From: Nitrospinae bacterium RIFCSPLOWO2_12_FULL_45_22
Lineage (GTDB): Bacteria > 2-12-FULL-45-22
Assembly (NCBI GenBank): GCA_001803565.1
Contig: MHDQ01000305.1
Span: 1 to 18,548, forward strand
Length of the DNA: 18,548 nucleotides
Direction: 5' to 3'
A program made the position numbers and the translations under genes. Each line of letters opens with the position of its first letter. Positions within the stretch are counted from its first letter, which is position 1. A model generated the notes under the pieces. The model worked only from the letters and a program-made list of their open reading frames with translations. It made no database searches and had not been told where the DNA came from. Of the stretch, positions 156-17,347 are shown in pieces.

Positions 156-973
156 TTAACAAAAAGCTTTATTCAATGTAAAACCAAATACGAACAAAAT
201 AACCTTAAGTAAGAAACCATCAAAAGTAACAGCATGAATCTTCTTGGGGAAAAAATTAGAAATTTCAGAAAATATTGTCTCTATCCTCTTGCGAATATAC
301 TTTTTATACCACCGTATGGGAGGTTCATCCCAACGTTTGGAATTCTTCTTCCTCATTGGAGAGAGCTTGATTTTATCCATCTCCATAAGGTCATCTTCAA
401 TAGTGTAATCGGTGTAGACGGCATCTGCATATATTTCACTTCCCTCAGGAAGGTAGAAGGGTAACTCATATAGAGCCTTTGAATCGTGTGTGGCACCAGC
501 AAAGAAGGTAATCTCAACAGGAATTCTATCAGAAGTAGCAAGGATATGGACTCGAACACCATAGAAATATCGTCTCTTGGAAGGTATATATCCTCTGTAT
601 TCTTCAGATTTGACGATGCGAGAGCGCTTTATGCGGATATTGTCACAAACAGGAACAGGAAAAGAATCCAATACATACTCCATAGAGATATTGGCTTGTT
701 TGAAAACAATACCAAGCTGGTGGAAGATGCTTACAATGAGATCAGAGAGGGCATGGATTCTCCTGCAAAGACGGGATTTTTCAAGCATATCGGGGATGAG
801 ACCAGTCTCATGCAGAACTACTCTGGCTCTCTCTATATTGCCTGCAAACACAATGGCAGATATCAATGCTGTTGTGATAACTTCCGAATCTGTCATCTTT
901 TGTCTTCTTGATGTTTAATTGCTTTGAGAATATCATCAACTATAGTATAAATTATAATTGTTTTTTCTATCAT
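156..973 (-). pseudogene. IS982-family DDE transposase, split by a one-base frame change near its N-terminus
   Basis: The main open frame (896 down to 156, 246 residues) begins MTDSEVITTAL. It carries IS982 hallmarks: DSFPVPVCDN, RGYIPSKRRYFYG, THDSKALYE, IYADAVY, SPMRKKNSKR and KYIRKRIETIFSEI, the last around the expected C-terminal acidic residue. Family members normally have about 25 more residues in front. These are present in another frame, from ATG at 973 (preceded by AGGAGG) to TGA at 893: MIEKTIIIYTIVDDILK then AIKHQEDKR. The two frames overlap by ATGA and differ by one base in the CAAAAG run. This may be an inactivating deletion, a sequencing error, or reinitiation at the overlapping ATG. 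The C-terminal residues LNKAFC run to just inside the left terminal repeat, so the 3' end looks intact. Confidence 0.85.
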
Positions 974-1060: not shown

Positions 1061-2512
1061 GAATATATAGATGCCCCTTATCAGTCCCTTTTTGCTGAAT
1101 CCTTATGGCAGGAGATAGTAGCCAATTCGGATATTGTCGCGGGCGGGGTAATGATGGCGTATAGTGATGAGTGGTGGAAGGGGAAGCATTCGGAGAAAGG
1201 GGGAGGTTGTCCCGATGCTGATCCTGCCTTTCATAGCCTCTGCGGGCATCCAGATGCATCACAGCCTGATAGATATGCAAATGAGGAGTGGCGGGGTATC
1301 ATGCGGTCCACCGATAATGGTCCTTACCCGGATATTATGGAGCCCAGGGCTATCTATTATGCCCTCCAGTCTCTCTGGACATCACCGCCTTTGCAGGAAT
1401 CCCAATCTGACTTGTCATCCAGACCTTCTCAGAAAGCCATTGCTACCTGCCCATCAACCATTAGCTTCGGCGAGACAATCCAGTGTTCAATCGATGCCGC
1501 TGGTGAGGGAGATACCTACAGCTTCTCTGGTAGTACTGGTGATGTGGTAGTGGTGAGGATGCAGACGACATCAGGGGGTCTGGATCCCCAGATCAAGCTA
1601 TACGACTCGGGTGGAAGTAAGCTCTATTCGGCATGGGGAAGCTACTATGCAGCGATAACAAACTGCACCCTACCTGGTAGTGGTACTTATACCATTGTAG
1701 CAGATGATTACGGTGGTACTGATAGCGGAAATTATGAGTTAAGCTTGTCATATGTTGGGTTTCAGGTAAACTCGATTACGCCGAATAAAGGGGGGAATAC
1801 TGGTGTTGTTACTACAACCATCACGGGGGCTAAGTTCGAATCAGGTGCCTCTGTCAAGCTAACCAGGGAAGGCAATCCTGATATTAATGCAGTAGAAGTA
1901 AATGTCACAGACTCATCCCATATAACTGCCAGCTTTGATCTGACCGGCAAGGCCTCCGGCACTTATGATGTCGTAGTCACCAATCCTGATGGCAAGTCAG
2001 CTACCTTACCCAAGGCATTTACCATCGAAGAAGGCGGCGAGGCGAAGCTGTGGGTAGATATCGTGGGAAGAGATAGAGTAAGGGTGGGAAGGACCGAAGC
2101 ATTCATTGTTCAATATGGAAACTCTGGTAATATTAATGCTGATTACCCATATTTGGTTATTGCACTACCAATGGAGATTAAATATGAAATTTTGGGCAAC
2201 TTCGCTTCGCTTCCTCCTGATAGTAGCTCTTCTAATTATACAACCACTGATCCAGAGGTATATCATTTGACCGTTTTGGGGGTTCCGGAGTTACCACCAG
2301 GCTCTACTCGCTCTATAAAACTGGAAGTTAATGCTCCTAAAATTGGAGAATGGAAAATAAATGCTTATATTACGACGGATAGAAGTGTAATTTACTCTTC
2401 TGTGCTTTCTTTTGCAAAATCTGCTTTTGAAGAATTATTTATGGAATCAACAAATGCTAATTCCCAAAGTACTCAAACAACCCTTTTTCAGAACGGACTT
2501 CTGGGAGATTGA
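1061..2512 (+). pseudogene. Glycoside-hydrolase-like C-terminal part with PPC-like and IPT/TIG-like domains (5' removed by IS)
   Basis: The frame is open from the IS edge. The first ~110 residues (EYIDAPYQSLFAESLWQEI, then VMMAYSDEWWKG, ANEEWRGIM and PRAIYYALQSLW) resemble the end of TIM-barrel glycoside-hydrolase-like proteins, in which a SDEWWK segment follows the last catalytic strand. The region 1450-1758 resembles a bacterial pre-peptidase C-terminal (PPC) domain (DTYSFSGSTGDVVVVRM, DPQIKLYDSGG, GTYTIVADDYGG). The region 1762-2030 resembles an IPT/TIG Ig-like fold (ITPNKGGNTGVVTTTITGA, GTYDVVVTNPDG). A further beta-rich module, with NSGNINADYPYLVIALP and PPGSTRSIKLEV, runs to the TGA at 2510-2512. 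There is no ribosome site or signal peptide in this fragment, so it is not expected to be secreted as it stands. The next piece of the same protein continues in another frame. Confidence 0.7.
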
Positions 2513-2889
2513 CCTGGCATGCGGCAAAGTCTTTAGGAGATGGTGATTTCATAGAAATAATGCCTGACAGTTCCGATTCTGATCCAGACATAAACATAAA
2601 AAACTTGAAGGATAATCCGTATCCTGGTTGGACATATTGGGGAGCCTATCGTTTACCCCGAACTCTTAGCAAAGAAGAATTGCAAAGGCGAGTTGATAAT
2701 CTCCGTAAAAGGTATGGCATAGATCCGGGAGATCCTAACAACATAAGTAAATACACCAGCATATGGTGTACATATAAGTTTGAAAAGGATAAAGCGCTAT
2801 CCACTTATTGTTGGGGATTGGTCTTTCTACTTAATTTTGACATAATTTATAGGGATAAAAAATGGGTAAGTGAAGCTGAACTCTATTAG
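2509..2889 (+). pseudogene. Middle fragment of the broken secreted protein, in a shifted frame
   Basis: This open frame would start at TTG 2509, overlapping the previous stop (TTGA), and ends at TAG 2887-2889. It encodes TWHAAKSLGDGDFIEI, YWGAYRLPRTLSKEEL, KRYGIDPGDPNNISKY, SIWCTYKFEKDKALSTYCW and YRDKKWVSEAEL. The sequence is hydrophilic and protein-like, with no signal peptide and no Shine-Dalgarno site. It lies exactly between two fragments that share a different frame, so it is best read as the middle of one ancestral protein bounded by two compensating frame changes. I do not recognise a named domain. An independent small coupled gene is possible but less likely. Confidence 0.55.
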
Positions 2890-4228
2890 CAGGAACCATG
2901 AGTGTTTTAAGAAATTTGGTAGTGGTATGGAAAAAGTTTTTTCTAGTGTTGCAGCTATCGACCCTAATGATAAGGAAAGCCTTGTTGGTTTCGACTTTGC
3001 AGGTACGCCTCAAGGTCAGCTGAAACATTTTGTAAGTAATGGTCAGTCGATAGGCTATATGGTCTTTTTTGAAAACCTCGAGACCGCCACTGCTGCAGCA
3101 CAGGAAGTGCTCATCACTGACCAACTTGATCTTAACCTCGATTGGTCAACCTTCTCATTTGGTGATATGCAGATTGGTGAAAAGATAATTAACGTGCCGG
3201 AGGGGGACAATAACTTTCAGAGCACGGTTGATCTGAGGCCGGATATCTCTGCACTTGTTGAGGTTAATTGCAACCTAAAGTTAGCAACCGGAGCATTTGA
3301 ATGTCTTTTCCGGGGCAAAGATCCTGATACTGGAGAACTGGCTGACTTCCTTCCACCAAATACAGATGCTGTTGACCCACGAGGAAGAGGCTGGATTTCA
3401 TTCAGTATAATGCCAAAAACCGGCCTCCCGACCGGGACAGTTATTAAGAATAAGGCAACAATAGATTTTGAAGTCGGCATACCACCGGACCCCATGGATA
3501 CACCAGAGGTCTTCAATACCATTGATTCAGATACACCAACAAGCGGTGTTTTACCCCTATCATCTGCGTATACTACCACTGATTTCAAGGTTAGCTGGTC
3601 TGGAAGCGATGGAGAATCAGGCAGTGGATTAAGGGATTATACCATTTATGTATCCGATAATGGCGGCGATTACACTCCCTGGCTTACTAATACCACGGCT
3701 ACCTCGGCGGAATTTATCGGTCAATTCGGACATACTTACCGATTCTACAGCATAGCCAGGGATAATGTCGGTAACGAAGAGGACCCACCCCAGCAGCCTG
3801 ATACCCAGGTGAGCATTAATGCCTCTGATAAGCTCATTGCGGTCTACACCAACAGATCCTCTTATACCACTGGAGACAATTTGAAGCTATTGGTCAGCCT
3901 CAATAATCCGGGTAAGGCCATTGTAGCCGATGCCTTCCTGGGCTTTATGTTACCAGATGGGAGCCTCTACTTTTTCGATAGCTCTCTTTCCAACCTGATC
4001 CCAGCACAAACTAATTATCCGAGAACCTTTACTGCTGCCCGCACCTCTCTGGACATCCCGGGGAGCTTCAGTTTACCACCAACCGAGGTCTTCTCGGTAC
4101 GGCTTCCAGAACTGGCAGAAGGTGACTACATTGCCTTTGCGGCCCTAGCAGAGCCAGGCTCGGTGCAGGCAGGTTCACCCAGAATAATCGGAGAAGTTAG
4201 CCTGGCCTATATCACATTTAGTAAGTAA
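2870..4228 (+). pseudogene. C-terminal part of the broken secreted protein: DPNDK module, Ig-like domain and recurrent C-terminal domain
   Basis: The open frame can start at GTG 2870, directly after a TAA, with no good ribosome site. It shares the frame of 1061-2512. It opens with SSVAAIDPNDK, followed by a beta-rich module (GYMVFFENLETATA, AQEVLITDQLDLNLDW, FLPPNTDAVDP, IKNKATIDF). Modules of this kind occur in large bacterial surface proteins. A fibronectin/Ig-like stretch follows (GSGLRDYTIYVSDNGGDY, HTYRFYSIARDNVGNE). The last ~130 residues from nt 3840 form the domain also found at 4542 and 15083: TTGDNLKLLVSLNNPG, FLGFMLPDG, YFFDSSLSNLIPA, AEPGSVQAGSPRIIG. No membrane anchor or sorting signal follows. 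The fragment may be the tail of a dead gene; expression from the GTG cannot be excluded. Confidence 0.65.
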
Positions 4229-4541: not shown

Positions 4542-5807
4542 ATGGCGCGGAAAATCTTTTTTATTCTTTTATTTGCTCTTCTGGTCCTAATCCCCCAGAG
4601 GGGATATGTGGAGTCATCTTTACCAGAAATAAAGATTTTTACAAATGGTCCCAGCTTCCGTTCCGGGGATACCCTGTCCCTTGCTGTGAGTCTGAGGAAT
4701 CCCGGGGCGGAAATGGCAGTGGATGTCTACCTGGGTTTTATCTTACCCAATGGAGCCATCTACTTCTTCGATGAAACCCTCAAGAATCTAGTGCCAGGTG
4801 ATATTAGGGATCATGCTACCTTTACTGCGGTTGGGAATGATGTTACTCTCCCCTCAGGATTCGATTTGCAACTTCCGGGGTTCTTCTCACTCAAATTACC
4901 CATCATTCCTGATGGCACTTATGCTGTTTTTGCTTTCCTAGCTGAACCCGGTTCTGCCCAATCAGGATCTATTCAGGTTATCGGAGGGGTCAGCCTGGTA
5001 TCTTTTAGCTATACCTCGGCACAGGGCGCAATTGAGATTATAAATGAATATCCTATCGGTACAATCTCAAATAGGCGACCAACCATTTCTGCAACTGTTA
5101 GATCTAGTTACAACTCTGAGATTGACCTCTCTACTATCCGAATGACTCTGGATGGCTCCCTTGTTTCTCATAATGTAAGCGGAGCCGGTTCAAATGTACA
5201 GTTATCCTATACCCCAAGTTATGACTTAGCTGAGGGAGAGCACAGGGTATCTGTAAACGCTAAAGATGTGAATGGTGTAGCAGCTAAGGAGAAGGCCTGG
5301 CGGTTTGAAATATCTGTAGCTAATCCAGAATGTGTGAATATTTCTGGACTATGGAATTGGTCTGAAACCGTGACTGTGACATGTACAGCCGAAGGAGAGA
5401 GCGAGACGGAAACTATAAGCGGTTCAGGGGTAATAAATATTAATCAAAAAGGTTGCAATGTGAATTGGACAGCTTCTTCCTTTAATGTTGATAGAACTGG
5501 AACAATTCAGGGTAATAACATTCAGGTATCAGGCCAATTTGTCATCCCGCTCGAGGAAGACGTTAATATTACGCAGAATATCTTTACTGCAAAAGGTAAT
5601 ATTAGCGGAAATCAGTTCAATCTGAATGGTTCAGGAATAGCAACAGGCACATATGAGGATATAAGTTTTTCCTGCACAGGGACTTCTACTGCTGTATTTA
5701 CCCGGGCAAATACTTCATCATTGTCTAGCGAAAAGGAGGTTATCAGGGAACCTTCGTTACTATTTTTTAATAATGCGATAAAAATAGTTACAACTGTGGC
5801 CCCTTAA
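4542..5807 (+). CDS. Secreted three-domain beta-rich protein with the recurrent surface domain
   Basis: This is a 421-residue protein of unknown function. It has an N-terminal signal peptide (MARKIFFILLFALLVLIP, mature from about residue 25). Residues ~27-160 are the recurrent domain (RSGDTLSLAVSLRNPG, VDVYLGFILPNG, YFFDETLKNLVPG, FAFLAEPGSAQSGS). Residues ~165-262 look like an Ig-like domain (RRPTISATVRSSYNSEIDL, AEGEHRVSVNAKDVNG). Residues ~264-400 are a beta-barrel-like segment rich in N, T and G (CVNISGLWNWSETVTV, GNNIQVSGQF, GTYEDISFSCTGTSTAVFTR), recalling small lipocalin-like secreted domains. The start is fixed by AGGAGG five bases upstream. Unlike the other two copies, the recurrent domain is here at the mature N-terminus. 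The gene is intact and separate from both neighbours. It is likely a periplasmic or surface-attached accessory of the locus, but no enzymatic motif is visible. Confidence 0.85.
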   Translation: MARKIFFILLFALLVLIPQRGYVESSLPEIKIFTNGPSFRSGDTLSLAVSLRNPGAEMAVDVYLGFILPNGAIYFFDETLKNLVPGDIRDHATFTAVGNDVTLPSGFDLQLPGFFSLKLPIIPDGTYAVFAFLAEPGSAQSGSIQVIGGVSLVSFSYTSAQGAIEIINEYPIGTISNRRPTISATVRSSYNSEIDLSTIRMTLDGSLVSHNVSGAGSNVQLSYTPSYDLAEGEHRVSVNAKDVNGVAAKEKAWRFEISVANPECVNISGLWNWSETVTVTCTAEGESETETISGSGVININQKGCNVNWTASSFNVDRTGTIQGNNIQVSGQFVIPLEEDVNITQNIFTAKGNISGNQFNLNGSGIATGTYEDISFSCTGTSTAVFTRANTSSLSSEKEVIREPSLLFFNNAIKIVTTVAP

Positions 5808-6299: not shown

Positions 6300-6944
6300 A
6301 TGGTCCAACTATCACTAACTATATTGAAAAGACTATTGCTGAACATCTTTTCGGTCATACTTATCACGGGCATAGGTCCATTCCTGTCTTTTAGTTATAT
6401 TACTCACGGTGCCCAACCTATATCAGATAAGATCCTTGTAGACAATTTTGAAAAACCGGGAAAACACAATTCTCTGGGGCATGATTTCGGCGCATTTTCT
6501 GACCAAAAAAACCTTGGTCACTGCTATTTATTTTTCAGCCAAGATAAGCAAAAAGAGTCATTGAATGAAAGCAAATACTCATTGTATATTCAATGGGATA
6601 CTGCTAAAGAAGGTTCATATGGGGGCTATTGGAGTGATCTCAGACATCTTAATTTGGAATCTTTTAATTATCTATCTTTTTATGTTAAGGGTGTAAAAGG
6701 TGGCGAAAAGTTTAAGGTTGGTTTAAGAGGAAAGGTAGACGCAACTTATGAAACAAAAATACTTATTAATGAAGCATTAAAGGAAGGTGTCACAGTTGAA
6801 TGGCAGAGAGCAACAATCCCTTTAAAATGGTTTAAGGCCATACAAAACTGGGGAGATGTAAATATGCTTTCTATCAATTTCGAATATACTTTTGGTAGTG
6901 GAAGTGGTGCAATTTTAATTGACGATATCGTTTTTGAGAAATGA
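6300..6944 (+). CDS. Secreted carbohydrate-binding-like (galactose-binding-fold) protein
   Basis: This 214-residue protein has a hydrophobic N-terminal export signal (LLLNIFSVILITGIGPFLSF, mature from about residue 38) followed by one beta-sandwich domain. The domain opens with KILVDNFEKPGKHNSLG, contains SYGGYWSDL at residues 106-114, and ends with ILIDDIVFEK. A VDDF opening, a SYGGYW loop and an IDD-x-x-FE ending also appear in the C-terminal module of the 2090-residue protein downstream, so they are relatives. The fold resembles CBM11/CIA30-type domains by pattern, and binding of a polysaccharide is inferred. ATG 6300 lacks a Shine-Dalgarno site, so the true start may differ slightly. Only 50 bases separate its stop from the ATG of the following glycosyltransferase gene, which suggests co-transcription. 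Confidence 0.75.
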   Translation: MVQLSLTILKRLLLNIFSVILITGIGPFLSFSYITHGAQPISDKILVDNFEKPGKHNSLGHDFGAFSDQKNLGHCYLFFSQDKQKESLNESKYSLYIQWDTAKEGSYGGYWSDLRHLNLESFNYLSFYVKGVKGGEKFKVGLRGKVDATYETKILINEALKEGVTVEWQRATIPLKWFKAIQNWGDVNMLSINFEYTFGSGSGAILIDDIVFEK

Positions 6945-6994
6945 ATCAATAACTTCCTCAACAAAATATATTCCCTTGTATTTTCTTGTATGTA

Positions 6995-8725
6995 ATGGAG
7001 CAGGAAATTAGAAAAAATAATTTCATGTATGCTGGCATTATCTTTAGCTGGCTAATCTGTCTTGGGCATTTTAATCCCAAACTTTTCTCTGTCTTAGGCG
7101 GTTCTGAATCTCTAACTACCAAATCGGTTTATATCATTTTCATATTCTTTCTCAATTTCTTCTGGCTCTATGGAATTTTTCATCTCTTCTTTCTCCTTCC
7201 CAAGATTCTTTCATTTTCAAAAAAATACCCCGTAGCTGAGAATCCGGTTCATTCACCAAGCGTCGCCATCCTCTATACAACAAGAAACGATTTTCAGGAA
7301 AAGGCGGCATTGTCCTGCATTAACCAATCCTATTCCAATTTTCATGTTTATATATTAGATGACAGTACAGATGATACCTATAAAGCAATTATCGACCAGT
7401 TTCATTATTCTCATCTTGCACAAACCACTATTATCAGGCGACGAGATCGGAGTGGCTTTAAAGCAGGGAACCTAAATAATGCCCTTCGGCACCATGCCAT
7501 CCGGTATGAATACTTTGCTGTTATCGATGCCGATGAGGTTATCCCCTCGGATTTTTTGGAGAAACTCGTGCCTTATTTTAACCTTGAAAAAAACATTGCC
7601 TTTGTTCAGGCCCATCATGAGCAAAATCCTCATCAACCATCAAAATTCGCCCAGGATTTGGCACTGGGTATCAATTTTCACTGGGATGTCTATCAGCCGC
7701 CCAGAAATGACTATGGGTTTGTCATTTTTTACGGCCATGGAGCCCTAATTCGGCGTGATGTATGGGAAAAGGTTGGTGGATTTCCTGAAATTGTTTCGGA
7801 AGATTTAGCCTTTGCAACCCGGATAAGACAATTCGGCTATCGAGGGTACTTTGTCCGGGAAGTGACCTGCTATGAAGATTTTCCTGAGACCTATCAGCAA
7901 TTCAGAAAGCGGCATGAGAAGTGGGTCAAGGGGGCATGCGAATACCTGCATCATGAATTTCTGCCTTTTCTCCTATCAAAGCGTGTAACGTTGCCAGAGA
8001 AGCTAGACGTATTATTCTCCTCCTTCAGCCTGTTTATTCCAGCCGTCTTCCTGATTTATATTTTTATCGCCAATGCGGTTCTTCCCATACTATTAGCAGA
8101 AAAACACACTCTTTCCATTAGTCTTTTTGGGCATAGTATCGAGTTGATGCCAGCCTATTTTATGGAACCGAGGTTTAAGAATTTATGGACCCTCGACTTT
8201 TACCTGATCACACTTATAGGCATGTTCTCACCTATCTTTTGCTATTTCGGGAAAATTTTTTCTCACCCCCAAAAGATTATCAAACTTCTATTCAAATCTG
8301 CTGTCCCATATATTTCTCTTATCCTTGTTTCTACCTGTGGTATTTTAACCTATCTTCTTACAAGAAAGGCTGTATTCCTTACCACTGGAGACAAAACAGC
8401 AAGTGGTTCCCTACTGTTACAAAATGGGAGGAGCGGCTTCTGGGAGAGTTTAAATTCAAACCATTCACTGGTTTTTCATCTAGAATGGGCATTGGGCTTG
8501 CTCCTAACCTATTTTTCGTTGATGACCATGAACTTCGCCCTTTTAACTGTCGCTTCCTGTCTGATTTTAAGTCCCCTCGTTGCTCATTATGGTTGGGAAA
8601 ATAGAGCTATATCTTTTTTTATATCATTACCACTCCTTTTTGTCCTATTAGCTTTTGGGAGTATGGGCATCGGTTTTTTAGGAATTCAGGGGCTTTCGTT
8701 GTTTTTTCTTGCTTTGCATTTTTAG
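6995..8725 (+). CDS. Membrane-bound family 2 glycosyltransferase, polysaccharide synthase type
   Basis: From ATG 6995 (a TTG at 6986 is also possible; neither has a good ribosome site) the protein is about 576 residues. Two N-terminal membrane segments (GIIFSWLICLGHF and IIFIFFLNFFWLYGIFHLFF) precede a cytoplasmic GT2 domain. Visible catalytic signatures are LDDSTDD, the metal-binding DADE at residues 178-181, SEDLAF (E269, D270) and QFRKRHEKWVKG, with W310 in the place of the QxxRW tryptophan of processive synthases. At least five C-terminal membrane segments follow, from LFIPAVFLIYIFIANAVL to the end FLALHF. The arrangement matches cellulose/hyaluronan-synthase-like enzymes that polymerise and extrude a sugar chain; the sugar cannot be told. 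The stop codon overlaps the ribosome site of the next gene, so the two are translationally linked. A damaged paralog lies at 16105-17980. Confidence 0.92.
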   Translation: MEQEIRKNNFMYAGIIFSWLICLGHFNPKLFSVLGGSESLTTKSVYIIFIFFLNFFWLYGIFHLFFLLPKILSFSKKYPVAENPVHSPSVAILYTTRNDFQEKAALSCINQSYSNFHVYILDDSTDDTYKAIIDQFHYSHLAQTTIIRRRDRSGFKAGNLNNALRHHAIRYEYFAVIDADEVIPSDFLEKLVPYFNLEKNIAFVQAHHEQNPHQPSKFAQDLALGINFHWDVYQPPRNDYGFVIFYGHGALIRRDVWEKVGGFPEIVSEDLAFATRIRQFGYRGYFVREVTCYEDFPETYQQFRKRHEKWVKGACEYLHHEFLPFLLSKRVTLPEKLDVLFSSFSLFIPAVFLIYIFIANAVLPILLAEKHTLSISLFGHSIELMPAYFMEPRFKNLWTLDFYLITLIGMFSPIFCYFGKIFSHPQKIIKLLFKSAVPYISLILVSTCGILTYLLTRKAVFLTTGDKTASGSLLLQNGRSGFWESLNSNHSLVFHLEWALGLLLTYFSLMTMNFALLTVASCLILSPLVAHYGWENRAISFFISLPLLFVLLAFGSMGIGFLGIQGLSLFFLALHF

Positions 8726-8737
8726 GGGGAATTACCA

Positions 8738-11700
8738 ATGAAAAGAAAAATTTTTATTGTAGCCATGAGTATTTTTCTGATATTGCTTCCAGTATACGGA
8801 TATGCCCTTATGGGTGATGCTGATGGCAATGGAACGGTAAATCTGGATGATGCACAGACTATTGCCCGATATCTCGTAAACCAGATCTCTGCTATTCCTA
8901 ACCCAACTGATGCTGATGCCACGCAAGATGGCAAGATAGACATGGAAGATGCCTTTGCCATCGCCCAAAAGGTTACGGGCCACACCCGGTTTGTGGTGGT
9001 TGCCCCTCGCTATGGACGTTCTGATAAGCTACAGATCGGGGATACGATTCGCATTGAAGTTTTTGAGAAATTTTTTCCTTTCAATATTACCGGTGGCACA
9101 GTCCGTATTCGTTCCGCGAATTCGGACTACGATTCTGGCGATCAACCATTGACCTTTGAGCGGAATGGCCGTTCGCTATACTATCATTGGGATACAGGTG
9201 GTCTAACAGCCGCATCAGACTATGAAATCACCGTAACCCTAAGCGACAGCGCTGGCCGTGCACTTTCTAGCAGCGAACCATCGGCCAGATCAACACAGGA
9301 CGCACCTCTACGCTCCAGCGCAATTCCTTTCATCCAAGTCTGGCTAAGGCTAACCAACCGAGTTTTCGAACCACCCTTTGTTGCGGCATCTGTAGATGCC
9401 TATGCCCCTGCGGCAGGGATTCCGCTGGAGTTCCGGCGGGTGGTACCGCATGACTCTGCGCACTATCCGTACCTGGGCCCGTTGGGCAGGGGGTGGGTCC
9501 ACAAGTACGATATCAGCCTGGAGGAGTATACGGATGGGCGCACCGCGTTCCACGGCCCCGAGGGGTTCAACCGTTTCTTTCAAAGCAATCCGGATGGTAC
9601 CTATACGGCCTCACCGGGGGATTATGGCCTTCTGACTCGCGATCCTGATGGAACGTTTCAACTCAAAGAGAAAAACGGATTTATGTATCGTTTCCGTTCA
9701 GATTTGCGCCTCGATTACGAAGAAGACTTGAACGGTAACCGCATCAGCGCGATTTACGATGGTTCGAACCGGCTTGTGGAGATCCGTCACTCCTCCGGGC
9801 AATCCTTCTTCCTGGAATACAATGCCTCCGGGCGAATCACACGGCTCACCGACCATGCCGGTCGGGTAACGACCTACGAATATGATGCCACGAACATCAT
9901 GCTGAAAAAAGTTACTGACCCTGCCGGAGGCGCAACCAACTATGCATACAGCGTTGGACAGAGCGATATCATGAACTACCGGTTGTTGTCGGTGGCCTTT
10001 CCCGACGGCGCCCACGTTCATTATGAATACGACTCCAATGCCCGTCTGATCCGCCAGACCGGCACCTGGGGCGCTAACCCCGTTACTTATAGCTACACTA
10101 TAGGCGGTAATTTGCAGGGTACATACACGCGAATTACCGATGCCCTGGGCGGGTCACCGACCATCTATGTGAACGACAGAGTACAACCCACCCTGGTGAA
10201 GGCCCCGGATGGGGCTCAGACCTCGAACCAATACGATGCATCAGCAAATCTCATCAAAATAACTGATCCATTGGCTCACGCTACGCAATTCGCCTATGAT
10301 GAATTCGGCAATGTAGTTCGGGTCACCAATCCTTTGGGTAAAACCGTTCAATTCGGTTATGACCTTCGATTCAACAAACCTTCCTGGATAACCAGCCCGC
10401 TGGGTAACACCACCTCGCTCGCTTATGATTCCAAAGGGAATCTGATCACCATGACCTATCCCGATTCAACCCAGGAAACCTACGCCTACGATCCCCAGGG
10501 GAACCTGATCTCCGTACAAGAGGGTGCTGGCAAGCTAACCCAATATTCCTACAATAGCCAGGGCCAGATGACATCTTTCCAGAACGCCCTCGCCAATATC
10601 ACGCAGTTCTCCTACAACCCAGCCGGAGATCTCGATAGCGTGACCGATGCCAAAGGGCATGTAATCTCCCACGGGCGCGACGTATTGGGGCGATTGATAC
10701 GGCGTACCTACCCGGACGGCCCACAGGAAGATTACGAATATGATGCCGCGGGTAAGGTAACCGGATTTACTAATCGGCGGGGCGAAAGGATCTCGTTTTC
10801 CTATGATGCCACCGGACGGATGGAATGGAAAAGATATCCCTCCGGAAAGAAACTGCACTTCCTATACGATTCCGCTGGATATCTTGCAAGAGTGGAAGAG
10901 GTGGGGGGGGAAGCGACGACTCTCGATACAGCTTATGAACGTGACGCTACGCACCGCATAACCAAAGTGAAGGTACCGGGAAAAGTTACACCAGAGTCTT
11001 ATGACGTATCCTATACCTACGACGCCGCAGGGAATCAGAAATTTATGGCCTACCCGGACGGTTATGCCTTGAACTATGAGTATGACGCAGCAAACCGACT
11101 TAAAAGGATTTATGATGCGGGCAATAATACCATCGTGACTTATGACTATGATGCTGCAGGCCGCCGGACAAAGAGAACCCTTGGTAATGGGACCTATACA
11201 ACATACGATTACGACACTCTGGACCGGCTAACAACGCTGGCCAATTACGCGCCGGGTGGAACAATCCAATCCCGGTTCACTTACACATATAATGCAGCAG
11301 GCATCCGCACCTCCATGACCACCCTCGAAGGGGCACACACCTATACCTACGACGATACCTATCAACTGACTGGCGTCAGGTATCCCGACGGCAGGGCGGT
11401 TAACTATGCCTTTGATGAAGTTGGTAACCGGACCAGCGTGGCAGACAATGGCGTGGTAACTGACTATACGACCAACGAACTGGACCAGTATACGCAGGTT
11501 GGCACGGAGACATATGGGTACGATACAAACGGGAACCTCAAGACCAGAACTTCAGGAAGCAACGTAACTTCGTATGGATGGGATGAGGATGATCGCCTCG
11601 TAAGGGTTGATCGCGGCGGAGTTCATATCGATTATCGATACGATTATCAGGGTCGTCTTGTATCCAAGACAATCGGAGGTCAGGAGACGCGTTATATTTG

Positions 11701-14700
11701 GGATGGGGTTGATCTGATTGCAGAAATGAATTCCACAGGTCAGGTGATCAAACGTTACATATACGGAGCAACAATTAATGAGATTATTCTTGTGTCGGCA
11801 AATGGCACGAACTACTGGGCACAGCAAGATGGATTAGGAAGCGTTGTCGGTGTGTCTAATGATACGGGCGTTTTAACTGCATCAAACTCATATGATGTCT
11901 ATGGCAATGTCCGAAGCGGTAACATTGCTTCTGTTCCTCAGCATTTTGCCGGAATGCGGTGGGATGAGGATGCGGGGTTATATTATGTTAGGGCGAGATG
12001 GTATGAGAAAAGTCTTGGTAGATTTATATCGATAGATCCAATAAAAGATATCAATTATAGTCTGAATCCTTATTCCTATGTCGGCAATCAACCTTTGTCA
12101 TTAAGAGATCCTTTAGGTCTATGGTGGGGAGGAGAAGTGTTAGATTGGATTGGTGATAATTGGGGGCTTAACTGGTTTGGGGAACACAGAAGCGGCGGGA
12201 AAATAACTCCAAAAGGGGGTATAGGAGATTGGAATGTACTCCCATCAAATTGGGTTGACTGGCATGCAAAATGGCATGATTTGAGTCGTTACAACGCTGA
12301 ACATGGGACAGGATTTTGGGGCTCACGTTGGGGGGGGACTGGCCGTCTTATGGATGAGATGGGCGCTGATGCAACGGTAATCGCTGGAATTCTTAGTGAA
12401 GCATTGCTTCGTTCAATCTTTGGAGTTTTTTTTGATGCATTTGATCCACGATTGTATGGACCTTATTTGGGAGGTATGTGCCCTACTTTTGTTCAAAGCG
12501 GCAATGCTCACGAAGAAAAGTCTTACAACTCAAATGATACATTAATAGCAAGGATAAAGGTTCCTTGGCCTGATTCTCTCCTCCGCTCCGATATCCCCAT
12601 TTATGGAATTGCATCTGGCAAAAACTTCTCTCGTTACCGCGTAGAATATGGGAAAGGATCAAATCCTACTGAGTGGCATCTCATTGCAGAATCTGATAAA
12701 CCGCAGGAAAGTGCCCCTGACTTCAAAGACATCTCATGGATGCAGGGTGACCTTAACTTAAAGGGGAATCTTGCGACGTGGAATACAGGGTTGAAGAACT
12801 GGATTCACCTGCCTTGGCATGCACCTGAAGACGAAACAGACTTTAACGGGGTCTACACTATTCGTCTGACCGTATTCGGGAAAGACAGCACGAAGGTTGA
12901 GGATAGAGTAACCGGAGAGGTAGGACGTGCAATTGCCCAGGCTCTTACTGGCATTGCTATCAGTCCTGACAAAAAAGTCGTAATGCGTTTTCCTGAGCAG
13001 GCATTGACGCATCCTTTCCGAGTTTACACAATACTTCCTTTCTCGGAGATTGGTGAAGAAACACCCACTTTATGCAAGGGTTGTGAAATTATCGGTCATG
13101 TGTACAGAGTTCGTGAACCTGGTGACAGGTTTATCAAGGATGTTTCTCTTGAGTTTAGTGTTAATGCGGGAGAAATAAAGAAACGGAAGGCTGAAAACAT
13201 CGGCATCGGGCGTTATGATACCGAGAAAAATAAATGGGTCTTGCTTGAAACAGTATATGACAGTAAGTCATCTGTATTCAAGACTAACCTTCAAGAATTA
13301 CCCTCACCTAAAGCTATCTATGCATTGATACACCATCAAACTGAGAAATTGTCCCATAAAGCCTTAGCTCCAAAAGAGCAGATTGCGACTTTGAAACCTG
13401 TCCGTCCCGGGGTTCTTCTGGAAAACAACTTTGAAAATGATCTCGGAACTTTCAAAAACCGTGACCGCCTGGTTGGCGCTGTTCTTTCACGTGATAATGC
13501 AGCAACTCCTGACGGCTCTTACTGCCTGAAAATTACCAATGAAAACCATAGCGGCAACTTCTCCTCTTCCGTAATTGATCGACCCTTTGATGTTCGTGAG
13601 TACGGAACCATGACCTTTGATTATCGCATCGGTCCCGAGGTAAAGATAGATTTCTTCCTTAAGGTGAATGGGCGCTGGTACGATTTGCAATTTACGGGAA
13701 AGCCAGTTGATTTTAAGAACCGCGATGTCAATATTGCCAATCTGGGTGCCATTCAAGGCATTATTGCCGATGATAAATGGCATACCGTAAGCGTTGATTT
13801 GCGCTACCTCCTGCACCAACAGACCCGCTATACCCGGATTGATGAGATTATCATGGCCAATTGGGACGTGGGGGGCTATATGAAGTTGGAGTTTGCCAAT
13901 AATCCGCGCAGTGCGACATATTATATCGATAACTTTAAACTCACTGGTCCTGGTAAGGTAGCTAACGATCCACCTCTCTTGCTGGTGGATGATTTCAATG
14001 AAGCTAAAAGCAGGAATAGGCTCGGAGGGGTATCCGGAACCTACTTCACCCCTGGCTCCAACTTTTTCGATGCCTCCTTGAGTGACGGTTCGACCTCCCC
14101 TATACGACCGGTTGCACCGAGGGATAATAAAAGTAGAGCACTGCTCTTAAATTTTGACACCACAAGGCCTGATTCATACGGGGGCTATTGGACTTCAATC
14201 GCCAGGAATGACTTATCAACTTACTCGACGCTTGCCTTCCGCATGCGCTCAGATGGAGAAATTCCTAACCTAACTGTCGGCATTCGCAACAGCCATGGCA
14301 TCGAAGGTAAAACCTCTATCCGACCCTATGTTTCGACGCCCGGCACTGATGGCTGGAGAGAAGTTCAGATACCCCTCACTGGGCTAAGAGGTCTATCTGA
14401 TTTTTCATCGCCCGAGGTCCTGTTTTTTTCCGTGACACATAAAGATAGGAGTAGCAAGGGTAGGCTATGGATTGATGACCTGCGATTCGAAAGCAAGCCC
14501 TATCCCCAGGTAGCCGATTTTGAAGCACCCTTTGACTGGACACTGCTTGGCGCTAATTACACAACGTGGCAGACCGGGGCTGCTACTGTCTCATCCGGTA
14601 GTCTGAAAGATATTACGCAAGAGAAAAATCAGGAAAATACCGTCTTGCGTATTTCTTATGGGGGGACGATTGGGCTCGATTATGGGTTAAATGGTGGGTT

Positions 14701-15010
14701 CTCCTATGCTTCCTGGCGGGCCGGTTTGAACGGTATGGATGCCAGGCAGTTCAATTATCTGATTATGCGTATACGTGGAGAACGGGGAGGTGAGACACCT
14801 AATATATACCTTAGTGATTCGGTTAAACGTATCTCTCTTCGAGCGAAGGAAATGCCAATAATTAACCGGGAATGGCAGACCATTAAACTGCCTCTGGCGC
14901 ATTATGTCAAGCAGGGTATTGATATGAGCCATCTTGAATCGCTGGAAATTGTCTTTGAGTGGGCCGAGCAATCCGGCACTATCTATGTGGATGATATAAG
15001 ATTTGAGTGA
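8738..15010 (+). CDS. Giant secreted dockerin / RHS-YD repeat protein with C-terminal carbohydrate-binding-like modules
   Basis: This is a 2090-residue protein. The start is set by AGGGGGAA seven bases upstream. Domains in order: signal peptide 1-23; a type I dockerin-like pair of calcium loops at 26-80 (GDADGNGTVNLDDA; DADATQDGKIDMEDAF); a beta domain to ~190; an RHS N-terminal domain (~220-310, GIPLEFRRVV, LGPLGRGWVHKY); about 800 residues of YD repeats; and an RHS core end (GRFISIDP, NPYSYVGNQP, DPLGLW at 1124-1129). Next comes a phospholipase-A2-like segment (P1169, N1171, D1174, A1177, H1180, D1181, with AD at 1210-1211). A beta region follows (~1240-1540, YRVEYGKGSNPTEW, GVYTIRLTVFG). 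Three beta-sandwich modules close the protein at ~1558-1745, 1748-1922 and 1925-2090, ending WIDDLRFE and VDDIRFE. In RHS toxins the chain normally ends soon after the core, so the 900-residue tail is unusual. No anchor is seen. The protein is probably extracellular and held by the dockerin and sugar-binding modules. Confidence 0.92.
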   Translation: MKRKIFIVAMSIFLILLPVYGYALMGDADGNGTVNLDDAQTIARYLVNQISAIPNPTDADATQDGKIDMEDAFAIAQKVTGHTRFVVVAPRYGRSDKLQIGDTIRIEVFEKFFPFNITGGTVRIRSANSDYDSGDQPLTFERNGRSLYYHWDTGGLTAASDYEITVTLSDSAGRALSSSEPSARSTQDAPLRSSAIPFIQVWLRLTNRVFEPPFVAASVDAYAPAAGIPLEFRRVVPHDSAHYPYLGPLGRGWVHKYDISLEEYTDGRTAFHGPEGFNRFFQSNPDGTYTASPGDYGLLTRDPDGTFQLKEKNGFMYRFRSDLRLDYEEDLNGNRISAIYDGSNRLVEIRHSSGQSFFLEYNASGRITRLTDHAGRVTTYEYDATNIMLKKVTDPAGGATNYAYSVGQSDIMNYRLLSVAFPDGAHVHYEYDSNARLIRQTGTWGANPVTYSYTIGGNLQGTYTRITDALGGSPTIYVNDRVQPTLVKAPDGAQTSNQYDASANLIKITDPLAHATQFAYDEFGNVVRVTNPLGKTVQFGYDLRFNKPSWITSPLGNTTSLAYDSKGNLITMTYPDSTQETYAYDPQGNLISVQEGAGKLTQYSYNSQGQMTSFQNALANITQFSYNPAGDLDSVTDAKGHVISHGRDVLGRLIRRTYPDGPQEDYEYDAAGKVTGFTNRRGERISFSYDATGRMEWKRYPSGKKLHFLYDSAGYLARVEEVGGEATTLDTAYERDATHRITKVKVPGKVTPESYDVSYTYDAAGNQKFMAYPDGYALNYEYDAANRLKRIYDAGNNTIVTYDYDAAGRRTKRTLGNGTYTTYDYDTLDRLTTLANYAPGGTIQSRFTYTYNAAGIRTSMTTLEGAHTYTYDDTYQLTGVRYPDGRAVNYAFDEVGNRTSVADNGVVTDYTTNELDQYTQVGTETYGYDTNGNLKTRTSGSNVTSYGWDEDDRLVRVDRGGVHIDYRYDYQGRLVSKTIGGQETRYIWDGVDLIAEMNSTGQVIKRYIYGATINEIILVSANGTNYWAQQDGLGSVVGVSNDTGVLTASNSYDVYGNVRSGNIASVPQHFAGMRWDEDAGLYYVRARWYEKSLGRFISIDPIKDINYSLNPYSYVGNQPLSLRDPLGLWWGGEVLDWIGDNWGLNWFGEHRSGGKITPKGGIGDWNVLPSNWVDWHAKWHDLSRYNAEHGTGFWGSRWGGTGRLMDEMGADATVIAGILSEALLRSIFGVFFDAFDPRLYGPYLGGMCPTFVQSGNAHEEKSYNSNDTLIARIKVPWPDSLLRSDIPIYGIASGKNFSRYRVEYGKGSNPTEWHLIAESDKPQESAPDFKDISWMQGDLNLKGNLATWNTGLKNWIHLPWHAPEDETDFNGVYTIRLTVFGKDSTKVEDRVTGEVGRAIAQALTGIAISPDKKVVMRFPEQALTHPFRVYTILPFSEIGEETPTLCKGCEIIGHVYRVREPGDRFIKDVSLEFSVNAGEIKKRKAENIGIGRYDTEKNKWVLLETVYDSKSSVFKTNLQELPSPKAIYALIHHQTEKLSHKALAPKEQIATLKPVRPGVLLENNFENDLGTFKNRDRLVGAVLSRDNAATPDGSYCLKITNENHSGNFSSSVIDRPFDVREYGTMTFDYRIGPEVKIDFFLKVNGRWYDLQFTGKPVDFKNRDVNIANLGAIQGIIADDKWHTVSVDLRYLLHQQTRYTRIDEIIMANWDVGGYMKLEFANNPRSATYYIDNFKLTGPGKVANDPPLLLVDDFNEAKSRNRLGGVSGTYFTPGSNFFDASLSDGSTSPIRPVAPRDNKSRALLLNFDTTRPDSYGGYWTSIARNDLSTYSTLAFRMRSDGEIPNLTVGIRNSHGIEGKTSIRPYVSTPGTDGWREVQIPLTGLRGLSDFSSPEVLFFSVTHKDRSSKGRLWIDDLRFESKPYPQVADFEAPFDWTLLGANYTTWQTGAATVSSGSLKDITQEKNQENTVLRISYGGTIGLDYGLNGGFSYASWRAGLNGMDARQFNYLIMRIRGERGGETPNIYLSDSVKRISLRAKEMPIINREWQTIKLPLAHYVKQGIDMSHLESLEIVFEWAEQSGTIYVDDIRFE
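10903..10910 (+). repeat. G8 homopolymer tract inside the RHS giant gene
   Basis: Eight consecutive G bases encode the centre of VEEVGGEAT (around residue 723), between YD repeats. A change of one base by slippage would truncate the protein before the RHS core. Tracts of this length can drive phase variation of surface genes, but a single sequence cannot show that it varies. Confidence 0.55.
12330..12337 (+). repeat. Second G8 homopolymer tract inside the RHS giant gene
   Basis: Eight G bases encode the middle of SRWGGTGRL (around residue 1199), inside the phospholipase-A2-like segment after the RHS core. A T8 tract follows at 12426-12433. Slippage at either would remove the C-terminal binding modules while leaving the dockerin and YD shell. 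Confidence 0.55.
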
Positions 15011-15070
15011 TACCAAGAATAAGGAACCTAATGAGCTTCTTTCAAGTCTTTCGAAGAACTAAATCATTTA

Positions 15071-15075
15071 AGGAG
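15071..15075 (+). promoter_or_regulatory. Ribosome binding site deciding the start of the cohesin-like gene
   Basis: AGGAG at 15071-15075 lies one base before an in-frame ATG at 15077 but seven bases before ATG 15083. The second spacing is the normal one, so translation most likely starts at 15083 and loses only two residues (MT). Confidence 0.7.
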
Positions 15076-15082
15076 TATGACC

Positions 15083-16009
15083 ATGCAAAAATTCCAGTGC
15101 ATTATATCCATAGCTGTAATGATATTACTTGTTATCCCTATTTCTTTCATCAGTGGAAGGGTGGAAGCCGGTTCTTCATGGATGGCCATAAGCAGCCCTG
15201 TGCCAACTCCTCAGAGTGGTGGGGTTTTTGAAACAAAGCTGAAGTTTTTTACCTGGGATGCGGTGATAGGTTCTTATTTTATCTCGGTACATTACGACCC
15301 AGCGATTCTACAGATTATTCAAGTAACTACGCCAGACCAATCACCATTTTATGGCAATACCTTTGCCGATAAAAATTCTTTTACAACTGGTACAACTGAC
15401 ATCAGCGCTTTTCAAACGGGTACTACATCCGAGCAAGCCAATCCCGAGATCTTTGCGACGATCCAATGGAAAGCCCTGGGTAACACTGGGACATCTGCTA
15501 CTATTGAACTTGAGCCAAAAAGCATAGTTGATTCTTTTTGGCGACCGATTGAGACTAATAGCGCAAGGACTACTTTTGTGATAGGTGATACTCCCAGCTA
15601 TGTGCCTACCATTATTATCATTGGCAACGCGAATAAATATTCTCCAGAAGACACCCTGGTCCTTTCGGTTATTATTGATAACCCCGCTCCTTATACCCAG
15701 GTGGTGGATGTCTTTCTGGGTATCATAATCCCAAATGGCTCAGCCTATTTCTTTGACTCTTCTCTCACCAACCTGATACCATCCAGTTTGGATGATCCTG
15801 GGACCTTTACGCCAGTAAGAAATTCCCTGAAACTTGATCCGGGATACAATCTTCCCGCCACTGCTTTCTTTTCTGTGACATTACCTACAGGCTTACCGGA
15901 GGGTATTTATAAAGCCTTTGCTGCCTTTGCCGAACCTGGCTCGGTCCAGGCCGGTTCCACCAGGATTGTAGGAGACATTAGTATTATTTCGTTTTACTAT
16001 TCCCCATAG
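15083..16009 (+). CDS. Secreted cohesin-like protein with the recurrent C-terminal domain
   Basis: This is a 308-residue protein. The signal peptide spans ~1-28 (IISIAVMILLVIPISF, then GRVEA). Residues ~30-165 look like a cohesin-family beta-sandwich: PQSGGVFETKLKF, SYFISVHYDPAILQII, a long loop, PEIFATIQWKALGNTGTSAT and IELEPKSIVD. The order of a strand with YDP-x-x-L and a later GxxGTS turn is typical of cohesins and their bacterial relatives. Residues ~170-308 are the recurrent domain (SPEDTLVLSVIIDNP, VVDVFLGIIIPNG, YFFDSSLTNLIPS, AEPGSVQAGSTRIVG). The gene begins 72 bases after the dockerin-bearing giant, on the same strand, and its protein is the obvious candidate receptor for that dockerin. 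No membrane anchor or SLH domain is visible. The cohesin assignment is by sequence pattern only; a related CBM or cadherin-like fold is the alternative. Confidence 0.72.
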   Translation: MQKFQCIISIAVMILLVIPISFISGRVEAGSSWMAISSPVPTPQSGGVFETKLKFFTWDAVIGSYFISVHYDPAILQIIQVTTPDQSPFYGNTFADKNSFTTGTTDISAFQTGTTSEQANPEIFATIQWKALGNTGTSATIELEPKSIVDSFWRPIETNSARTTFVIGDTPSYVPTIIIIGNANKYSPEDTLVLSVIIDNPAPYTQVVDVFLGIIIPNGSAYFFDSSLTNLIPSSLDDPGTFTPVRNSLKLDPGYNLPATAFFSVTLPTGLPEGIYKAFAAFAEPGSVQAGSTRIVGDISIISFYYSP

Positions 16010-16104: not shown

Positions 16105-17232
16105 ATGACGGCATTAAAATATCAACCGAAGGGGCTGCAAAAAAAGAGTTTGATGCATCTCAGTTTAATTGGGGGATGGGTTTGTATTGTAGTCTGGTTC
16201 AATCCCCGTTTCTTGCTGTTATTTTCCGAAGCATACTCTATACCGGCAAAGATGTCTTTAATCCTAATGATTATTTGCCTCAATATATTCTGGCTCTTTG
16301 GAACTTATTTCATCATGCTGTTTGTTTTTGCCTTATTTTCCAAAAGGCGACTATCTCCACCTCCCTTGAAACCAACGGAACAGCCAAAGGTCGCTATTCT
16401 TTATATGACCAGAAATGATTTTCAGTATGAGGCGGCTCTTTCCTGCCTAAATCAAAAGTACCAAAATTATCAGCTCTTCATTCTGGATGATAGCACAGAA
16501 CCGGACAGGATGGAGGAAATAGATAAATTTAAAGAAAAGTTCCCGGAAAAAGTGACTGTGATCCGAAGAAAAGATCGGAAAGGATTTAAAGCCGGTAGTA
16601 TAAATAATGCCTTGAGAAATTATGTCCATGATTTCCCTTTTTTCGCCATTATAGACTCTGACGGGGTTATCCCAGAAGATTTTTTAGCGAGGATGATACC
16701 TTATTTTGGATTGGATGAGAGCATCGCTTTTGTCCAGGGAAGCCACCGACCCAAACCATTCCAAAAGTCCAAATTTGCATCTGATTTGATTCTCGGGATC
16801 ATTCCCCTCTGGACAGTCTACTTTTATCCCAGAAACGATTATGGATTTCTTATATTTCTAGGGCATGGAGGCATAATAAGACGGGATGTTTGGGAGATAA
16901 TAGGGGGATTTCCTGAGCTCGTCTCTGAGGATCTAGCCTTTTCTACCAAAGTCGCAGAGTTTGGATATCGGGGCTATTTTGTTAGCGATGTTATAAGTTA
17001 TGAGGATTTTCCGGAATCTTACCCGCAGCTTAGGAAGCAACAAGAAAAATATGTGAAGGGAGGTTGTGAATTCCTTCATAGGAGTTTTTCTTCGTTTTTG
17101 CGATCAAAAAAGGTAACCTGGTTTGAGAAGCTGGATGTGTTCCTCTCTTGCTCCACCCTTTTTCTCCCCGCCTTTTACCTCTTTTTTCTTTTGATATTTT
17201 GTTTATTCTGCATATCCGCTTCACTCTCGTAA
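16105..17232 (+). CDS. Second membrane GT2 polysaccharide synthase, catalytic half (truncated)
   Basis: A 375-residue frame starts at ATG 16105 with CGGAGG five bases upstream. It is a clear paralog of the GT2 at 6995. It has two N-terminal membrane segments, VAILYMTRNDFQ, LDDSTEPD, DSDG at residues 184-187 in place of DADE, FIALGHGG-like FLGHGGIIRRDVW, SEDLAFSTKV (E275, D276) and QLRKQQEKYVKGG. The tryptophan of the QxxRW-like motif is replaced by tyrosine. The paralog continues for about 230 residues of membrane domain, but here the frame stops at TAA 17230-17232 just after the first post-catalytic membrane segment. Changed motif residues and loss of the membrane half argue that it no longer makes polymer, unless the downstream fragment complements it. 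Confidence 0.85.
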   Translation: MTALKYQPKGLQKKSLMHLSLIGGWVCIVVWFNPRFLLLFSEAYSIPAKMSLILMIICLNIFWLFGTYFIMLFVFALFSKRRLSPPPLKPTEQPKVAILYMTRNDFQYEAALSCLNQKYQNYQLFILDDSTEPDRMEEIDKFKEKFPEKVTVIRRKDRKGFKAGSINNALRNYVHDFPFFAIIDSDGVIPEDFLARMIPYFGLDESIAFVQGSHRPKPFQKSKFASDLILGIIPLWTVYFYPRNDYGFLIFLGHGGIIRRDVWEIIGGFPELVSEDLAFSTKVAEFGYRGYFVSDVISYEDFPESYPQLRKQQEKYVKGGCEFLHRSFSSFLRSKKVTWFEKLDVFLSCSTLFLPAFYLFFLLIFCLFCISASLS

Positions 17233-17347
17233 AGGTCTTCTACCCACAGGATTTAGTGTATGAATATTTCTAGAAACACCGTATGTAGATACAAGGGGAG
17301 TCAACAGGATATGCATATTGTTTATTACTACCCCATTTCTTTGCTGA

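Follow-up and report, generated by a model that had tools for sequence, protein, structure and literature searches.

The window analysed here, a stretch of 18,548 nucleotides, encodes an adjacent cohesin-dockerin pair of a non-cellulosomal kind. This pair probably attaches a giant RHS protein with CBM-like modules to the surface or matrix of a cell that makes polysaccharide. The pair belongs to a group of four genes on the + strand, in the order CBM30-like protein, GT2, dockerin-RHS giant and cohesin protein, with gaps of 41, 12 and 66-72 bases; all domains of these proteins given below are also on the + strand. Judging from the common strand and the spacing, the four genes would form a single transcript. 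The search for promoter and terminator signals gave nothing informative, and the counts were near those of shuffled sequences.

The first gene of the operon (6300..6944) encodes a secreted CBM30-like protein of 214 aa, which matched PF21582 with 31.5 bits (cut-off 27). The second gene (6986..8725) encodes a GT2 of 579 aa, a membrane protein of the cellulose/PNAG-synthase type (PF13632, E 3e-22). It matches solved cellulose synthases (5ej1, E 8e-13), and its scores against the NCBIfam equivalogs were below the cut-off of every one. A second GT2 copy (16105..~17980, +) is 51% identical to the first in its N-terminal part (residues 8-355). This copy is broken by a frameshift and stops near 17230-17340, and its QxxRW-like motif is QEKYV, compared with HEKWV in the first. 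The first-pass annotation had placed the pair between two polysaccharide synthases, which has to be corrected to one intact GT2 and one broken copy. The tie to polysaccharide synthesis that it proposed has held, as the operon includes a processive-type GT2 that is retained in a second genome. At the edge of the window (156-896, - strand), the translation of another gene reads like an IS-type transposase.

The third gene (8738..15010) encodes the giant, a secreted protein of 2090 aa with a signal-peptide-like start. Directly after this start is a type I dockerin (8813..8971, residues 26-78), which matched PF00404 with 26.8 bits (curated cut-off 22.9; E 5.8e-6), and with 33.3 bits in the whole-genome search with the same profile. 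Comparison with solved dockerins by phmmer, on sequence alone, gave 4uyq as the best match (E 1.4e-6). Both of the calcium loops that the first-pass annotation had read here were found. Loop 1, DADGNGTVNLDD (residues 27-38, 8816-8851), has the canonical DxDxxGxxxxxD pattern. Loop 2, DATQDGKIDMED (residues 60-71, 8915-8950), has Thr instead of Asp/Asn at position 3, and the same Thr is also present in the dockerin of the related locus described below. The predicted model of the dockerin-Ig part was poor (pLDDT 46).

The dockerin is followed by an Ig/PKD-like domain (8984..9247, residues 83-170), for which the Pfam PKD match was weak and below the cut-off. The next region is an RHS/YD shell with an RHS-associated core (9344..12121, residues 203-1128), in which PF05593 matched in 15 stretches, together with PF20148. 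The core was recognized by TIGR03696 at residues 1052-1128 and ends in DPLGL, the DPxGL ending of polymorphic RHS toxins. A module of about 115 residues (12125..12472, residues ~1130-1245) follows the core and has no family match in Pfam or NCBIfam. A phospholipase A2 likeness of this post-core segment (WHAKWHDLSRY) was considered and dropped, with neither database giving a match. The conserved post-tip domain (12521..13417, residues 1262-1560) has no Pfam family. The C-terminal region (13418..15007) consists of CBM30/CIA30-like modules, of which two were recognized and an earlier third is predicted. PF21582 matched here in two stretches, PF08547 was just under the cut-off, and the region is similar to the protein encoded at 6300. 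No glycosidase match was found in the giant with Pfam. The description of the cargo as an RHS protein with sugar-binding-like modules instead of a glycosidase is thus consistent with these matches.

The fourth gene (15077..16009) encodes the secreted cohesin protein of 310 aa. Its start may be at 15083, where the ribosome-binding site AAGGAG is located 7 bases ahead, and the 72-base gap reported earlier holds for this start. PF00963 matched residues 46-142 with 25.4 bits, which is 1.3 bits above the cut-off of 24.1, and a phmmer search of the PDB sequences with the cohesin found nothing. Because this margin is thin, a fold comparison was run, and it carries the cohesin assignment where phmmer was silent. 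The AlphaFold2 model, built from four sequences (mean pLDDT 72.7), showed a jelly-roll cohesin fold at residues 34-171 (15176..15589). The closest match was 2jh2 from C. perfringens (Z 14.3), followed by type I cohesins (Z 13.0-13.1), 2xdh from A. fulgidus (12.5) and type II cohesins (about 11). The secreted neighbour of the giant can therefore be regarded as a cohesin by both profile and predicted fold, as the first-pass annotation had suggested.

The C-terminal part of the cohesin protein (15602..16006, residues 176-310) is a recurring FnIII-like domain of about 135 aa with the motif AEPGSVQAGSPK. Its carriers number at least 12 proteins in this genome, with copies at 3836-4213, 4608-5015 and 15602-16006 of the window and on 9 other contigs. 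The domain is C-terminal in most carriers, and is directly past the signal peptide in two of them. It has no Pfam or NCBIfam family; weak matches occurred in just 2 of 144 other genomes, and a scan of the genome contigs with the domain alignment gave no match. It is possibly a lineage-specific surface or sorting module. One of the carriers is a PPC and choice-of-anchor-like secreted protein (1151-4228), which appears to be split over the frames 1151, 2509 and 2870, probably by a frameshift, and terminates in this domain. FnIII folds are common. The fold of residues 172-310 was nearest to RbmA (Z 11.8 over 110 residues), the biofilm scaffold of Vibrio cholerae and a polysaccharide-binding matrix protein (PMC5605196, PMC3855419). 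The two share an FnIII-like fold; however, they are only about 15% identical, and the likeness is a lead rather than membership.

A scan of genome contigs with residues 22-330 of the giant found one related locus, L060 (PNOB01000136.1), in a MAG named Desulfobacterium sp. SW.3.97. Here the four genes recur in an unchanged order. The sequence identities between the two loci are 73% for the GT, 62% for the CBM30-like protein, 69% for the dockerin with the Ig domain (63% for the dockerin alone, and 81% for the Ig/PKD-like domain), 68% for the RHS part and 64% for the tail. The cohesin proteins are 48% identical, or 51% over the cohesin domain alone. The giant of L060 was compared as two pieces, since a frame break (L060:2875-3518, at 3483/3518), either real or an assembly error, separates its dockerin-Ig and RHS parts. 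Both modules of L060 were also above the Pfam cut-offs (PF00404, 25.1 bits; PF00963, 25.1 bits). In the dockerin (0.26/2.2) and the cohesin (0.40/1.4), dN is well below dS, with dS near saturation, and the same was found for the Ig domain, the GT and the CBM30-like protein; the comparison covers these five, as no values could be computed for the RHS part or the post-tip part.

At E <= 1, the genome of L060 (4.2 Mb) contains a single cohesin and a single dockerin, a count that holds if the bin of L060 is right, and these are the two operon neighbours. Two random genes would be adjacent by chance in about 1 in 2,000 cases, assuming ~4,000 genes. At the sequence level, the conserved adjacency of a lone pair argues strongly, if circumstantially, that the two are cognate. 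Two regions differ between the loci. The module after the RHS core appears as a break in the BLAST alignment, flanked by the 68% identity before it and the 64% after it. Past the cohesin, the two proteins share nothing, and the L060 cohesin protein continues with acidic repeats and a module that NCBIfam recognizes as choice-of-anchor U (45.2 bits, cut-off 32). A socket that is kept while its attachment is swapped would be the pattern expected of an anchor protein. The earlier idea of docking at the cell surface gains weight because the L060 protein ends in this module.

The genome of the window is 85% complete and has three cohesins and two dockerins above the cut-offs. The two further cohesins and the other dockerin are on contig C186. 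They belong to a secreted scaffold-like protein of 1383 aa (L035:7518-11669, +), in which the modules are arranged as cohesin-dockerin-cohesin and the FnIII-like domain occurs again at the C-terminus. By eye, its N-terminal side appears to be beta-helix-like and FnIII-like. Positions 10-11 are the usual recognition positions of dockerins. At these positions the C186 dockerin has SA/TA, compared with LD/ME in the giant, and the C186 cohesins are 24-28% identical to the cohesin of the window. Cross-binding with the C186 modules is possible. Membership in a cellulosome was rejected, given the module counts (three cohesins and two dockerins here, one of each in the genome of L060) and a giant without a glycosidase match; the pair is therefore better described as non-cellulosomal, as was first proposed.

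The similarity between the two loci does not follow that of their genomes. The RpoB proteins are 54% identical, which is below every operon protein except the cohesin. No GT relative was found among 388 relatives of L060's genome; wider GT searches in 386 and 389 genomes gave matches in already known genomes alone, and nothing matched among viral contigs and plasmids. The alternatives are a transfer of the operon in one piece and mis-binning of L060. In the latter case, one contig came from another organism, and both the distant conservation and the count of one cohesin plus one dockerin would mislead. The low RpoB identity, against 62-73% for most operon proteins, and the absence of a close GT relative would fit such an artefact. 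The composition of the operon and of L060 fits both genomes about equally, and the bin of L060 cannot be checked in this way because L060 is almost all operon. Nevertheless, horizontal transfer explains the identity mismatch equally well. The flanks of the window fit their own genome by tetranucleotide composition (r 0.505 vs 0.243), and copies of the FnIII-like domain occur on other contigs of this genome. Moreover, the four-gene order would still be common to both loci even if L060 were mis-binned. A binning artefact is thus considered quite unlikely.

It is also rather unlikely that binding has been lost, so that the dockerin serves as a calcium-stabilised cap and the cohesin as a generic beta-sandwich adhesion module. 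Dockerin-like and cohesin-like modules do occur in organisms without cellulosomes (PMC9012536), and the Thr of loop 2 and the marginal cohesin score would agree with such a loss. However, both modules are adjacent in two genomes and are the sole such modules of one, both show a dN well below dS, and the cohesin fold matches type I cohesins with Z 13-14. The giant's dockerin might instead be meant for another cohesin, such as the C186 pair, while the adjacent cohesin has another partner. The C186 protein with its shared FnIII-like domain provides a candidate, but the divergence of its cohesins and the different recognition positions of its dockerin make this very unlikely, and in the genome of L060 the pair stays adjacent without any other cohesin or dockerin. 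RHS proteins vary just past the core, and the studied RHS toxins carry a variable tip at the extreme C-terminus. The module past DPLGL might then be a polymorphic toxin tip, with the cohesin retaining the toxin at the surface until contact. The exchange boundary is located exactly where RHS proteins vary; however, the variable segment (1130-1245) is internal, and about 845 conserved residues follow it, to residue 2090. The tip has no match among the Pfam and NCBIfam families, there is no immunity-gene candidate downstream in either genome, and in both the giant is followed by the cohesin gene. A surface-held toxin is hence regarded as distinctly improbable.

The preferred reading is that the adjacent pair docks the giant to the cell surface or matrix. 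The GT2 would make and export a polymer, as expected from its family. The giant would be secreted, and its RHS shell, as delimited by sequence, would fold with the CBM-like modules at the C-terminal end. The N-terminal dockerin may then plug, with calcium, into the cohesin encoded by the neighbouring gene, as the conservation of the pair suggests. The cohesin protein would be attached to the surface or the matrix through a C-terminal module that is exchangeable, namely the FnIII-like domain in the window and the choice-of-anchor U module in L060. The giant could thereby be bound to its anchor at one end and to the sugar polymer at the other, with the variable module past the RHS core as a swappable tip.

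Some of these parts also occur together in a third lineage. The post-tip domain recurs in a secreted protein of 481 aa in each of two genomes of the same genus (G529 and G677). This protein adjoins an RHS/SpvB-type protein and a GT2 related to that of the window (E 5e-111). The cluster of G529 (L080:2142-11599, -), which is present in part in G677, comprises the GT2, the 481-aa protein and an RHS protein of the SpvB/TcdB-mid type; the G529 cluster additionally holds a second RHS-core protein. No relative of the cohesin protein was found in the 19 kb of the G529 cluster, and no dockerin in the G529 genome. Docking therefore appears to be an addition that the GT2-RHS theme can do without. A wider theme may consist of the GT2, the post-tip domain and the RHS part, in which docking would be one means of connecting the parts. 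RHS shell proteins adjoin GT2 synthases in two arrangements, with the post-tip and RHS parts fused in the window and encoded by separate genes in G529 and G677. A search of the literature for RHS shell proteins beside GT2 synthases gave nothing specific.

The role of cohesins and dockerins outside cellulosomes has been a question since these modules were first seen in Archaeoglobus. Where a genome has many scattered modules, their partners cannot be guessed; a genome with one cohesin and one dockerin in adjacent genes is different. Since the cargo and the anchor are defined and the operon also encodes a polysaccharide synthase, the partner, purpose and specificity become directly testable. The plug and socket are conserved, while the anchoring end and one cargo module differ; this pattern points to a device for surface assembly that is not connected with cellulose digestion. 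As a more tentative proposal, which we hold as possible rather than probable, a four-gene polysaccharide-linked surface assembly might pass between distant bacteria. In it, a lone dedicated pair would tether the RHS shell to its anchor; this anchor and the post-core module would be exchanged, and the plug, the socket and the GT2 kept. The docking system would then be modular in its RHS cargo as well as in its point of attachment.

The best structural matches of the cohesin (Z 14.0-14.3) are 2jh2, 2w1n and 2vo8, cohesin-like modules of surface glycoside hydrolases of C. perfringens; there, however, the cohesin is part of the enzyme. In the literature searched, which covered few subscription papers, there was no specific report of a lone pair combined with an RHS giant, CBM-like modules and a GT2. 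Archaea and bacteria are known to have cohesins and dockerins outside cellulosomes (PMC9012536 and the work that it cites). These include the modules of Archaeoglobus fulgidus and the survey by Peer et al. 2009, as cited in PMC9012536. The A. fulgidus-type systems are similar in that the modules function outside cellulose degradation, and the fold of 2xdh resembles that of the window's cohesin; whereas in the window a GT2 operon encodes the cargo, which is an RHS giant, and the anchor module is separable. Matrix or adhesion roles were also proposed for adjacent cohesin/dockerin domains of ANME archaea and their sulfate-reducing partners (PMC9012536, PMC10553843). Adjacent cohesin/dockerin proteins are expressed by the sulfate reducers that live with methane-oxidising archaea, and transfer between clades is probable (PMC10553843). 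These organisms are likewise non-cellulolytic anaerobes, but the carriers described in PMC9012536 and PMC10553843 are ABC-transporter binding, S-layer and Ig-domain proteins. RHS is absent from the text of PMC10553843, and the passages considered from the two papers report no GT2 in the same operon. A dockerin on an Rhs-bearing protein is not wholly new, as scaffoldins of the ScaO/ScaP type with Rhs modules were described in Acetivibrio cellulolyticus (PMC3413522) and Clostridium alkalicellulosi (PMC6780208). They similarly combine a dockerin and Rhs modules within one secreted protein. However, the ScaO/ScaP proteins belong to cellulosomes and contain cohesins and peptidases as well; whereas the giant of the window has neither, and its partner cohesin is encoded by a separate adjacent gene.
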